Origin: Hyperoplus lanceolatus | Lineage: Eukaryota > Chordata > Actinopteri > Uranoscopiformes > Ammodytidae | DNA: 64,000 nt | Direction of reading: 5' to 3' | Assembly: GCA_026929865.2 (NCBI GenBank) | Contig: CM049416.1 | Span: 14,734,501-14,798,500, forward strand | Part shown: positions 24,501 to 36,500 of the stretch, in pieces | Position numbering within the stretch: position 1 is the first letter of the stretch | How the letters are laid out: every line of letters begins with the position of its first letter | Notes under the pieces: model-generated | What the model was told of the DNA's origin: nothing | The model's database searches: none | Seen by the model: only the letters and a program-made list of their open reading frames with translations | Program-made: the position numbers and the translations under genes

Positions 24501-27500
24501 ACACACACACATATATATATATATTTTTTTTTTTTTTCACTGCCCTTACTTTATTGTTCCCATAGGGCAATACTGGAGCTCCTGGAAAATCTACTGATAT
24601 AAAGGTGATGTAGAAATAGCTCATGATGCACTTTTAGCTTTATTCATGCTCAATATGTTCATATTTTAAATGCCTTTTCTTTTTTCTCCAGGATATTGAA
24701 GTGATGTTTGAAGACTACGGAATAAGGGTGAGCTCTGAGTGAGACATTGCGAGAGTTTTTTATTAGGTGGATAAATAGGTGACAGTGTCCTAGTTTGACA
24801 GTTTCTCAATAACAACTTCTTTTTTTATTCTTTTTCAGCTGCCTCTGCTGAAGGTTTTGATTGACAGGCTGCTGCAGGAGGGAATAGAGGAGCTGCTCCG
24901 TGTGCTCGACACCTCAAAGAGAACAGCGGAAAACACGGAAACACACACCTCCAATGTCATCACTGAATACACGGTACATTGAGTCTAAAAAAGGAAGGGT
25001 GTTGTTGGCTAAGTTCTAATGCTATTCTGTGGCCCATCCTCATGAGACACCATTGAAAGTCATCAGCCCTTAACCGAATAGTTAACAGCTGCAGGATGCG
25101 ATGGTTTTAAAAAAGTCCAAGTGATTTCTACCTGAACTAAAATACTTTCACTAATCCATTTCATCGTCTCTTTTTTGATGAGCAACCATTTTAGTTATGA
25201 GTCATCCAATTCATCTTCATGTCATTTAACAAAAGATCAAAAAAAAATTGTTTAAAGTGCAGTGAAAAATTAACTTATTATACTTGTTTTCTCATCGCAT
25301 TGTCTCAACAGAGTTCAGAGAAGTTTGGCCTGAGCGGTCAGCCGTTGTCAGACTCTTTGACAACTGTGAGTGACTTTAAAACTTCCATCTTGAGTCTTCC
25401 AGTGACTTTTTCATAAAATAAAAGGAAATAATATACCTTAAAAGTGAGAGTATTAATCCTCTTTCCAAAAGCAAATCCTGGATTTTTCTCCAATCAAGAG
25501 TGCATTTCTTGGGGCCGTTGTTGATAATAATTCAGTAATCTGCCACATCTCTTATTGGTTTTGAGATACCGACAATGACAGAAGAATTTTCTCCCGATTG
25601 TCCTTAAAGTTTTAAGGAAAAGTTGTGAGGTCTCAATATGTGCGTAGATCAGCACAAAAGAACATTTTTGAAAGAGACAAGGTGCTGTTGCTCCCTTCTT
25701 GTTTGATTATTTTCAAACTTCAGCAACACTTGTAGTAACAGAACAACTTTATTGTGAGAGCAGAACATTTTGGCTTGTGTCCGCCTACATCTCATCATCC
25801 TACTAAGAAGATTAAAAAAATATTCATCATTATACTGATATTGCCACTGATATATTTTTAACTTAAAGTTGATGCCACTGTTTCAAAAACCATGCACTCT
25901 ATCTCATATGCACTGATTCTGTCTTTTGATGTGAAGGACCCTTTAAATGAAACGGCAGGGCGGCACAGTGTCGGAGCATCTTCACTCAAAATGAATATGA
26001 GCGCAGTCAATTCTACTTCCAATTATACCACGACCCGGGAGGTAAAGATGTCTGACAATCAAGCATGCTTCAGATGTGTCATTTTACTCAATTGTTAAAA
26101 ACATGCCGAGTACATGAAACATGTTCACCATTTGTCATATTGAACACAGTCGGATCTTTGTGTCAATTTTCCCTTGATATCCGGCATTGAGAAGAAGCAT
26201 AGTTCTTGATACTGTGAATTTTTTTTACCCTGACTTTTTACTATCATGAATTCAGAAAAAAATATTTATATACAGTGTATGGTATTATTATTATATTATT
26301 ACTGGCTAGCTTTTCATCTGATGTGAGAGTGAAAAATAAACTTTCTGCCATGTTTTCAGTATAAAGTGGTAGTATTTTTAAACCTTACAAAAGACTCAAG
26401 TGTCCGATATAGTTTTGTGTTTTTGTAGTGTTTTGTTCTGCTGATTACCAATTAAATGTCAATTGTGTATGTCAGACTGTTTCAGGATTCCCAGAAACTG
26501 CGGTGGAGACTGCTCTCCTCTCTCAGGAAGACTCTCTAAAGAAGACCTCAGGGCAAAAGAAAAAGAATAGGGAACGTGGGAAGGTAAAGCCAGGGTGGAC
26601 CTCTTCGTTTTATCCATGACTGGGTTTTCCCCCACATTGAATAAAAACCATCAGGAGTACTGTGTCATCCACTGTATGCAACATAAACATACAATACTAC
26701 TTCCATAATTTTTCTTAACAAGTGTTATTATTTTCCTTGATTGTCCATGATAACTTATAATACCTCTTATAACTTACATATAAAGTATATTATCAAAGGA
26801 GCGTTCTGGTTTTGCATGTTTTAGCTCACCCTACCTACCTTCCAGGTATTAACTGATTTGGGAGAAGCAATCAAAGCTTAAAATGTTTTGCTTTGATGCC
26901 TCAAAAAAGTATCTGATTTTGTGTTTAATTCCTTCTTAATCAAATTTAGAATGTCTTTCCAGCATGCAGACACTGCACTGCAATACGTTACATTACATCA
27001 GTTTAATAAACTCCCCTAAAAAAAACGAATAAATTCTGCCATGACTCAAAATCAGTGGCTGCCTGGAAGGAAGGAAACTAAGAAGGCAATTTTAATTTAT
27101 CACTCTTTACATTAAATGTGAAGTGTGAATATATTTAAAATTTATCAATTCATCATAATGTAAAGTATATTTGATTTGTAATAATGGGCTGAAACATGCA
27201 CATACATACACAAACAGCTCTCAACCATTCAGTAACTTCACAACCAAAACATCTTTCTGTAAAGGTGTTCCATTCATTATTGATATTCATTAACTACGTA
27301 TTTGCCCTCTTAGAATATATCAACCTCAACTTAAAGTATCAACTCATTGTTTCATACTTGATCACCAGCGTCTGAAGCATGAGAAACCTTTATCTTTTTT
27401 CTCTCCGACTGTGAACTTCTTAACCAGGGCAAAGGAAATAAAGGACGGAATAAGAGGCAGAGACAACGCCTGGTAAATGTCCTTGAAGGGGTCCACATTT

Positions 27501-33500: not shown

Positions 33501-36500
33501 GGTAGTAATATCTCTTATGTTTTAAGGTGTTCATGCCAGGTGCCCCAGGTGGAAGGAATCGATTCCATGATGCACAAAAAGTAAAACTATTCCATATTTC
33601 CAGCCTTTAGAAATGTAAACATTTGATTTAGTTTGCATCCGATGAAATATGGGCCTCTTAAAGGTGGAGTCAGCAATTCTGGAGAAAACTTGTTGTCAAA
33701 TGATCTGCTACCTGTCCAGTATTTATACACAGCCTGTGCTCTGTAGATGGGTATGTAAACAAAGCGGACCATCGTAGCTAACACATGTCTGCTTACAGAG
33801 CTTGGCTGTGTACAGGGCCGCCCATAAGGGTTTTTTTTTTTTTTTTTTTTGCAGGTTACCTAATTTAGCCAACCTTTATTATGAACGCTATATTCGCAAG
33901 AGAACTTTCTATAAAAGAAAACATTGTATTCATTGTTACATGGGTAAAATATATCACATTTTATATTGAAAAACTAAAAGTATTATGGGTCGTTTTTTCC
34001 CCCTCAAAACCGTTGCATGCATTGATGATGAGCAAGCTAACCTAGCAAGCTCAGTGATGCCAGGACCTGGACATAAATCAGGGTACCAGAAAAGAAAGGA
34101 AAAAAAGGGAACTTTCAAGGGCTTTAGACCCCCAGAAAATTCCTTAATATCAGTATTTCTGCTAGCAGAAGTGTATTTTCAATTCAGAGATACTGTGATA
34201 TTTCATCAAGTTTTGAGGTGTCTTTGAAATTATTCTGTATATTTTATCCATTATTTTCTAAGAAAATTAGAAAATTACATATTTAGCCTTTAAATGAAGG
34301 TGGCAGATGGTTGTTATACTGATGAGGAAAGCTTCTGGTAGCAGTGCTATCATGGTAAACCCCCCCTACAGCATTGGTGTGTCTAAAAGCTTACATTAAA
34401 GGAAATGTTACAGTAAATGTGCCAAAAAGGAGATGCAGAGCTCTTGCAAGAGCAGAAAATTTCCGCTCGTACGCTGCGCGCACTCGCATCGTCGGGATCT
34501 CTGCCCACTATTATTTCCAGCAGCCCACCCTAATCTAACTGGCTAGAACCGGCCCTGTGTACGGGTATGTGTTCATGTAGGAATAAGCGCATCATGCACA
34601 TTGATACAAGTTCAGTATGAGTAAAGGGGGCCCAATGACTGGACCTTTTCAGGGGCCCAGTCATTTGTCTGGGCAGGCCTGTGTATAAGCACTGGTTTAT
34701 TTTTTCAGTGCACACAGGTGGCAAATGGTAAGGAGTGTTACGGCCGACCTACCAGGCTTGAACATGGGTCAGTCGGTCCTAAGAGATGGGCGAACGCCGT
34801 TCGGAAGGGTGGGGCGATGGCCTACGTCGCCCCCGGCCGATCGAAAGGGAGTCGGGTTCAGATCCCCGAATCTGGAGTGGCGGAGATAGGCGCCGCGAGG
34901 CATCCAGTGCGGTTTCGCAAACGATCTCGGACGAGCCCCCATATGTTACAGCCGACCTACCAGGCTTGTTAATCGGACGATAACAATTAAAGAAACCAAG
35001 ACAAAACCATGAATCAACGTTTAAAACCATAAGGTAATGTATTAAATCAATCCCAAAACTCACGTTAACCGGAGGCTGTAAAAGAAAAGGAAAACGGGAG
35101 GAAGCCTGGGACAGCCACAGTTGGACTGCGTTATTGCCCAGGTCTTCCTCCAACTAAACTATACCCCGGCCCCTCTAAAGCTACGATCAAAACAAAAAGA
35201 ACACTAAAATAACAGCCCTCCATTAACTAAATCATAAGACAGAAAGCAGCAGCAGCATGGAGCAGGTCAGCAGCCTAGAGGCTCGTGTGGAGAGAGAGAG
35301 CCGCCACCGGCACAGGAGCACCTGCCCCCCTAATCAGGACACCTGAGAGAGAGAGAGAGTGAAGGAGGGAACAGGAGGAGCGAAAACAAGGCGGGAGCCG
35401 TAACAGGAGATATTCACTGATTTTGACAAAAAAGGATTCTGACAAAAAAAAATCTCCAGAATCGCTGACTCCACCTTTAATGGTGGACAGGTTGTGAGAT
35501 TGCTACATTTTTTGTAATTTCAGCATATGTCTTCTGGAGCTCAAGGTTATAACAACTGGAATGTAAGTCAGCCATCAAGATAATAAGTGTTCATCCAAAC
35601 TAGGATGGTGTTACATATCTTGGTTTGTATCACAATACATTTCTTTCTCTAGAGGAAGAAAGAAGAAAACCCTGATGTTCAAACACACACCGGGAGACAG
35701 GGGCAAGAATGGAGGGAGAGCCAGCGATACAGTGATACAGAGACAGAGAGGGAGACTGAAGAAGAAGTGCAGGAGACGGATGGCTACACAGAAGCAGGCC
35801 CTGACCCAGATGAGGAGAGGAGCGGAGACTACAACTGGGAAACGGAGGAGGACGTCGACCGAGAGAGGGAAGGAGAGGAGGAGCTGGAGAGGGAGAGAGC
35901 AAGAGAACGGATGGAGATGGAGAGAGAGAGAGAAGAGCTGGAGAAAGAGAGGGAGAGAGAGGAGGGGGGGAGAGACCTGGTAAGGGAGAGGGAGGAGTGG
36001 GAGAGGAGGAAGGCGGAGATGGAGACAGGACAGCCGTACCCTGCAGAGTATTACCGCCTGAAGGTAAGGACACAAAGATTTCCCCTCAACACACTCATTA
36101 ATACCAAATCAATACCAAATAAGGAGACTTTAAAAATAAGGCTGTTAATTCAACATTTCTCATGCAACAGGGACAACCAGGTGAGACTGGAAACCCAGGA
36201 ATAAAGGTGAATAAAGACATTTTATACTTAAATTAAGATCAGACTGAAAAGCCAAATGCATGGTCACAAATGTAACATTTTTTAGGTAAACACTCAAATA
36301 TTACAGCACTTACATGTAATCTTAAACAACTATGAAATAGCTTATTCCGCCTGTTTCGATGCCTTACCTTAAAACCAGACAACCACCAGAAGCGAGGGAG
36401 AAAATATGTTTTGTTTTGTCATTTTGGGTGAACTGGCCCTTTAAAGTGTCACATGCTTCAGAAGTCTGGATTCTTTCACCAAGTCACCAATGTAGTCCCG

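Follow-up and report, generated by a model that had tools for sequence, protein, structure and literature searches.

Results

The stretch of Hyperoplus lanceolatus DNA analysed here (the window; 64,000 nucleotides of assembly GCA_026929865.2, contig CM049416.1, positions 14,734,501 to 14,798,500) carries the fish ortholog of COL7A1 (col7a1), in which 16 segments of non-collagenous reading frame stand between two triple-helical regions. The reading we prefer, with a probability of roughly 0.6, is that most of these segments are real exons and that they encode a disordered, extensible linker of ~460-480 residues that replaces triple helix.

Gene identity

An earlier sequence-only reading had assigned the gene to collagen VII, and the domain content agreed. 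In NC1, two VWA domains (Pfam E 3.4e-24 and, for the upstream one, 3.6e-37) flank FN3 repeats; these were taken as joined exon pairs, with no repeat-by-repeat count, and all three pairs passed the cutoff (E 5e-11 to 6e-7). A single FN3 fragment fell below it. The long interrupted Gly-X-Y region (Pfam Collagen E 1.7e-18) was modelled as 58 Gly-X-Y exons, all phase 0, and is followed by a Kunitz-encoding stretch and by a CRF-family reading frame (Table 1). UCN2 sits beside COL7A1 in human, and the urocortin neighbour expected of COL7A1 orthologs is thus present here, as are the paired VWA domains, the interrupted helix and the Kunitz domain. What is absent is the hinge of ~39 residues, in whose place the fish gene has 462-479 aa; the short hinge is a mammalian trait and no defining mark of vertebrate COL7A1 orthologs. 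No second col7a1 was recognised in the 807-Mb genome among the matches to Kunitz (at least 34), VWA (at least 68) and helix-tail (at least 11) queries, and four consecutive Gly-X-Y triplets occurred in none of the 12 non-col7a1 loci fetched from the Kunitz and VWA searches with 1.5 kb on each side of the match. Salmon col7a1 is described, in the available text of PMC10627282, as expressed at the epidermal/dermal zone.

Table 1. Features of col7a1 and its surroundings (positions within the window; splice sum, summed acceptor and donor score)
Feature	Position	Strand	Length (aa)	Evidence or remark
First triple-helical region, 36 exons	10910..24604	+	598	modelled Gly-X-Y exons
Last Gly-X-Y exon ahead of hinge	24566..24604	+	13	AG/GT, phase 0, Gly-X-Y
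Hinge exon 1	24692..24727	+	12	splice sum 21.1, exact recovery
Hinge exon 2, predicted amphipathic helix	24839..24973	+	45	splice sum 20.1
Hinge exon 3	25312..25365	+	18	splice sum 12.3
Hinge exon 4, four N-glycosylation sequons	25937..26041	+	35	splice sum 15.2
Hinge exon 5	26476..26583	+	36	splice sum 12.0
Hinge exon 5, alternative form, acceptor 26527	26527-26583	+	19	splice sum 15.6
Hinge exon 6, polybasic, RNKR motif	27428..27472	+	15	splice sum 11.7
Hinge exon 7, acidic, Tyr-rich, net charge -11	27934..28011	+	26	splice sum 12.1
Hinge exon 8	28338..28397	+	20	splice sum 18.0
Hinge exon 9	28504..28548	+	15	splice sum 13.8
Hinge exon 10, one sequon	28693..28800	+	36	splice sum 14.9
Hinge exon 11	30753..30806	+	18	splice sum 12.5
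Hinge exon 12	30921..30971	+	17	splice sum 13.4
Hinge exon 13	33395..33448	+	18	splice sum 12.3; acceptor 2.9, weakest in set
Hinge exon 14	33527..33580	+	18	splice sum 11.3, lowest in set
Hinge exon 15	35524..35562	+	13	splice sum 16.9
Hinge exon 16, C-terminal half Glu/Arg-rich	35653..36063	+	137	splice sum 15.9
Second triple-helical region, 22 exons	36171..43454	+	445	modelled Gly-X-Y exons
Opening Gly-X-Y exon behind hinge	36171..36206	+	12	AG/GT, phase 0
Kunitz-encoding stretch, C-terminal NC2 domain	45916..46101	+		Pfam Kunitz_BPTI E 1.6e-18
CRF-family ORF, urocortin-like, downstream of col7a1	50737-51291			Pfam E 1.9e-13

Splice signals of the hinge segments

All 16 hinge segments (24692-36063) are preceded by AG and followed by GT, are stop-free, have lengths that are multiples of 3 and together encode 479 aa, exactly at the boundaries originally given for sixteen phase-0, non-Gly-X-Y exons between two helices. 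Because the search had taken phase-0 segments only, their shared frame is not independent evidence, and chance was therefore tested with a splice scan and controls. Acceptor and donor matrices were trained on 57 Gly-X-Y exons of col7a1, with the hinge exons excluded, and candidates across 11.5 kb were non-overlapping, phase 0 and open with a summed score of at least 8. The hinge region yielded 21 candidates, among them 15 of the 16 named exons at their exact boundaries, compared with 8.5-17.7 in seven controls scaled to 11.5 kb, several of which derive from 1-4 hits. With a filter of GC >=0.46, picked after the hinge exons had been seen, 15 candidates were left in the hinge region (13 named exons and 2 in repeat sequence) versus 0-5.6 in the controls; exons 1 and 15 lie under this filter. 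Mean GC was 0.49 in the hinge exons versus 0.377 in the hinge introns. Exact recovery missed exon 5, which was outscored by its overlapping shorter form; with that form in its place the hinge comes to 462 aa. Exons of 12-20 codons, for which splice signals are the evidence, are individually weak calls, but taken together most of the 16 segments are most likely real coding exons and would be included in the mRNA. Codon usage was dropped as proof of coding, since the synonymous-codon score, negative in total for the hinge, is negative for the undisputed collagen exons of col7a1 as well.

Comparison with the human chain

Counted over both helices and the hinge between them, the fish chain measures 1522 aa, and the corresponding human span is ~1530 aa. 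A relaxed rescan of the introns gave no convincing further Gly-X-Y exons, only two weak extra candidates. The human hinge is 39 aa long in the available text of two sources (PMC3368718, PMC8214732), as the sequence-only reading had stated for mammals; the first of these places it at 1940-1979, between a first helix of at least 661 aa (1279-1939) and a second of about 796 aa (1980-2775), with NC2 from 2776. The first fish helix has 598 aa versus at least 661, and the second, at 445 aa versus about 800, is roughly half as long, or ~350 residues shorter. In an alignment of the second helices that used a provisional human sequence, the C-terminal ~300 residues were gap-free and a 360-residue deficit of the fish helix adjoined the hinge; with the same provisional sequence, non-Gly identity in register was 0.219, as against a mean of 0.093 (SD 0.027, maximum 0.175) in 60 shifted registers. 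Since the second helix is shorter and overall length nearly equal, the linker seems to stand in place of helix and to be no addition to a mammalian-type rod. Judged from this one genome, the rod may have been lost, or never gained, where the linker sits, and a single species does not fix the polarity of the word "expanded". A provisional human hinge sequence scored 29 against fish exons 1-2 (P 0.033) and 28 against the remaining fish hinge, and homology of exons 1-2 to the human hinge was set aside as suggestive only.

Alternative explanations

A tentative alternative is that the helix was interrupted and neighbouring collagen exons then lost their glycine periodicity in place, keeping phase and size. 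It draws on the near-equality in length to human, on the position of the deficit beside the hinge, on the divisibility by 9 of 10 of the 16 exon lengths (P 0.016; 46 of 57 among the collagen exons of col7a1) and on five Gly-X-X-Gly pairs versus 1.62 in shuffles (P 0.016). However, the lengths fall to 8 of 14 (P 0.058) once exons 1 and 2 are omitted, the spacing of 3 was one among six tested, the hinge glycines are spread over all three registers counted from the exon starts (9/12/8), and events may have run in the opposite direction, with mammals gaining helix.

A more doubtful possibility is that part of the 16 segments are not exons at all, or that most serve as alternative cassettes, so that the hinge of the main isoform would be far shorter (e.g. 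exons 1, 2, 4, 7, 8, 10 and 16). Some false candidates do arise in the controls when identical cut-offs are applied (with the GC filter, the minus strand of the hinge region yields 3.0 per 11.5 kb), every hinge exon is symmetric in phase 0, there are two acceptors for exon 5, and short exons hold little information; yet the candidate count with the GC filter is well above the controls, and the exons are set off from their introns by GC.

The sequence-only reading had pictured a large insert in the middle of the rod. The non-collagenous linker of ~460-479 aa between two helices stands, but its insertion into a rod of mammalian type is improbable, as both helices are shorter than their human counterparts and total length is unchanged. 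Finally, an origin of the exons from transposable elements or segmental duplication is highly improbable: repeats are abundant in the hinge introns, with interspersed or fold-back repeats at 29056-30461, 31999-33048 and 33820-34691 in the three longest, but these overlap none of the named exons, and when the translation of exons 1-15 (342 of 479 aa, with exon 16 omitted) was searched against the 807-Mb genome, no place but these exons themselves matched at E<=1, the next two places having E 4.0 and 5.2. Two candidate duplications were dropped, namely a putative degraded copy of exon 2 at 27819-27843 (84% over 25 nt; tile test P 0.014), whose tile 27601 ranked 19th of 624 for the exon-1/2 region, and tandem exon duplication, for which exons 11/12 came closest of the 120 pairs compared (P 0.009) but were not significant after correction. 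Among bacterial and archaeal genome contigs there were 66 pattern matches, and tblastn showed no relative.

Composition and predicted structure of the linker

The hinge contains 16.7% E and no Cys, and its charge-hydropathy value of -0.10 falls on the disordered side. It matched no Pfam family at E<=1, and exons 1-15 gave four PDB matches at chance level (E 0.037-0.52). In single-sequence AlphaFold2 models, predicted helices were confined to exon 2 (residues 2-44, mean pLDDT 86.5) and to the C-terminal half of exon 16 (residues 65-124). A purine-rich tandem repeat at 35861-36010 underlies the latter half. The five N-glycosylation sequons were not enriched over shuffles (2.97, P 0.16). Of the earlier description of the linker as flexible or folded, flexibility accords with the composition, while a fold finds little support in the domain searches and the two predicted helices. 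Most likely the linker is an acidic, largely disordered and presumably extensible spacer bounded by two helices. The human hinge is likewise described as structurally disordered (Richer and Seeger 2014, as cited in the available text of PMC7137805), and a helix modelled in exon 2 sits uneasily beside that description.

Discussion

If the preferred reading of a linker replacing helix is right, the linker would work as an extensible spacer that is disordered, highly charged and in part glycosylated, and in which the amphipathic helix of exon 2 could gather the three chains directly behind the first rod and the long charged helix of exon 16 would stand directly ahead of the second. Because every hinge exon is phase 0, any subset could be skipped without a frameshift, and splicing could therefore tune hinge length. 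Taking 0.29 nm per helical residue and 0.36 nm per extended residue, rough geometry gives a fish rod of ~300 nm versus ~425 nm, plus a link of ~20 nm slack and up to ~170 nm pulled, so that fish collagen VII may be stretchier than human. Changes in anchoring-fibril geometry, binding and protease sensitivity, as proposed in the sequence-only reading, may follow from such a linker.

The fish chain shares with mammalian COL7A1 the order VWA, FN3, VWA, interrupted collagen and Kunitz, and one long interruption near mid-helix; it differs in a linker ~12x longer and spread over 16 exons, and in its halved second helix. Titin PEVK and tropoelastin-type segments are built from many short in-frame exons of low-complexity disorder and can act as springs that vary by splicing. 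The composition and exon phases of the fish linker fit this pattern by analogy only, with no sequence relation claimed, and unlike these segments it sits between collagen helices. Collagens such as XIII, XVII and XXV carry coiled-coil segments between helices; judging from the single-chain models, a helix-forming stretch beside the triple helix could similarly re-register three chains here, although the fish has one short amphipathic helix and a charged Glu/Arg helix. In exon number, 74 modelled fish exons (helix and hinge) compare with 84 in-frame human exons in the available text of PMC11256143. Among the open-access titles listed, none was on the hinge of fish collagen VII.

A bolder and unlikely version is that, in this fish lineage, half of one rod became a disordered spring by a one-for-one exchange of residues. 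Next to an ancient interruption, Gly-X-Y exons would have decayed in place with exon phase, exon size and total length kept, and the all-phase-0 set would let the skin set anchoring-fibril stretch by splicing. Were this true, the human segment behind the hinge would be dispensable in a natural ortholog. Most of the mutations reported in dominant dystrophic epidermolysis bullosa fall in exon 73, in the helix directly behind the human hinge, according to the available text of PMC8214732, and deletion of exons from the human helix is under trial as therapy according to that of PMC11256143. A natural collagen VII that lacks most of the hinge-proximal helix and has a long linker would reveal what the hinge and this segment must do and what is sparable, and fish would become a system for testing hinge length, fibril stretch and skin adhesion.

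Locus and gene identity

By sequence, the gene in the window (14734501-14798500 on the contig designated C22, in an assembly of 807 Mb and 527 contigs) is col7a1. A first VWA domain was matched upstream, in locus L010 (E 3.6e-37), and was followed by FN3 domains above cutoff in all three joined exon pairs, a second VWA (E 3.4e-24), a collagen match (E 1.7e-18), and a Kunitz domain (E 1.6e-18). Downstream of col7a1 lie a CRF-family gene (E 1.9e-13) and an Adaptin_N match (E 5.4e-19); in human, COL7A1 adjoins urocortin 2. The same chain possibly has a second long linker, in an open frame that lies after its last FN3 exon and ahead of its second VWA. 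A zebrafish col7a1l is named in PMC6992796, and none of the open-access titles listed dealt with the hinge of collagen VII in a fish.

Support for the hinge exons

The sequence-only reading had placed 16 exons between the two helices, and its coordinates were correct, as all 16 segments are AG/GT-bounded within the interval and sum to 479 aa. To gauge chance, splice matrices were trained solely on 57 Gly-X-Y exons and the hinge region was then scanned without supervision. At score 8 the scan returned 21 non-overlapping candidates, 15 of which coincided exactly with the exons already named, compared with 8.5-17.7 candidates per 11.5 kb in seven controls; with a GC cut picked post hoc, 15 candidates remained in the hinge region (13 of them named exons) versus 0-5.6 in the controls. 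This excess over the controls indicates that the majority of the hinge exons are probably real; among the short ones, a small number could be false. Codon usage gave no support for the hinge exons as coding. Exons 1-15 were unique in a search of the 807-Mb assembly. Exon 5 has two acceptors, of which the inner scores higher and may mark its true start.

The three longest hinge introns are enlarged by repeats that overlap none of the named exons. Among the repeats listed below, the fold-back element contains a Tc1-like transposase C-terminal reading frame with a weak DDE_3 match that falls below cutoff (E 0.018), and the inverted repeat in a first-helix intron looks like a short inverted-repeat element.

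Features in and near the hinge (window positions)
Feature	Position	Location	Description
Open frame	6006-6317	Between last FN3 exon and second VWA	Thr/Pro/Lys/Ser-rich
Inverted repeat	22818-22878 and 23008-23068	Intron ahead of last first-helix exons	Perfect 61-nt arms, 129 nt apart
Hinge (linker)	24692-36063	Between first and second helix	16 phase-0 non-Gly-X-Y segments
Exon 5	26476-26583	Hinge	Acceptors at 26476 and 26527 (inner)
Fold-back element	29056-30461	Hinge intron 10	Near-palindromic; inverted arms (109, 328 and 129 nt) nested in one another, 93-95% complementarity
Interspersed repeat	31999-33048	Hinge intron 12	At least ~40 genome copies, 87-98% identity, among matches listed
Interspersed repeat	33820-34691	Hinge intron 14	At least ~40 genome copies, 87-98% identity, among matches listed
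Tandem repeat	35861-36010	Exon 16	Purine-rich, coding

Rod lengths in fish and human

The first helix comprised 598 aa in 36 modelled exons and the second 445 aa in 22, and a relaxed rescan of all introns for missed Gly-X-Y exons added just two weak candidates, 8 aa and 10 aa long; the hinge interval contains one of them. From helix start to helix end the fish chain thus measures 598 + 479 + 445 = 1522 aa, nearly equal to the corresponding human span of ~1530 aa. In PMC3368718, human residues 1279 to 2775 (1497 aa) give a similar total, and the positions of the hinge (1940-1979) and of the start of NC2, the C-terminal domain (2776), imply a human second helix of ~796 aa, far longer than that of the fish. 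Because the total is near-equal and the second helix is shorter, the fish linker looks like a replacement of rod and not an addition to it; the earlier proposal of an insert added mid-rod was therefore not borne out.

The missing rod was tentatively located by alignment with a provisional human helix sequence, which serves as a lead and not as a record. Against this provisional second helix of 805 aa, the final ~300 residues aligned free of gaps, interruptions included, and all 360 absent residues sat between the hinge and the start of the gap-free alignment. Over the last 262 residues in register, non-glycine identity to the provisional sequence was 0.219, while 60 control registers, shifted by multiples of three, gave a mean of 0.093 (SD 0.027) and a highest value of 0.175. 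The human hinge, likewise in a provisional sequence, matched exons 1-2 only weakly (P 0.033).

Origin of the linker

Exon lengths and glycine spacing offer a hint that the hinge exons are decayed Gly-X-Y exons: lengths were divisible by 9 in 10 of the 16 (P 0.016), weakening, once exons 1-2 are set aside, to 8 of 14 (P 0.058), and Gly-X-X-Gly pairs, one of six spacings tried, numbered 5 against 1.62 expected (P 0.016). No glycine register relative to exon starts was found across the hinge. Tandem exon duplication was tested as an origin and dropped, as was a putative exon relic.

Composition, predicted structure and function

The linker is acidic (E 16.7%), has no cysteine, falls on the disordered side of the charge-hydropathy plot, and matched no Pfam family at E<=1 over its full length. 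In single-sequence models, exon 2, taken by itself, gave a predicted helix with a mean pLDDT of 86.5, and exon 16 a long one over residues 65-124 (block means mostly 82-97), with 53-56 over its initial 60 residues. The charged helix of exon 16 is encoded over the tandem repeat, and so its coding length may vary between individuals.

Of the five sequons in the linker, exon 4 carries four. Around exons 5-6 the linker is polybasic, with a single RNKR motif and a single heparin-type motif, and this stretch is followed by a strongly acidic, tyrosine-rich exon 7; RNKR is a possible cleavage site, and the linker could possibly bind glycosaminoglycan. On the best reading of these sequences, the linker would be a tethered, extensible spacer joining two shorter rods.
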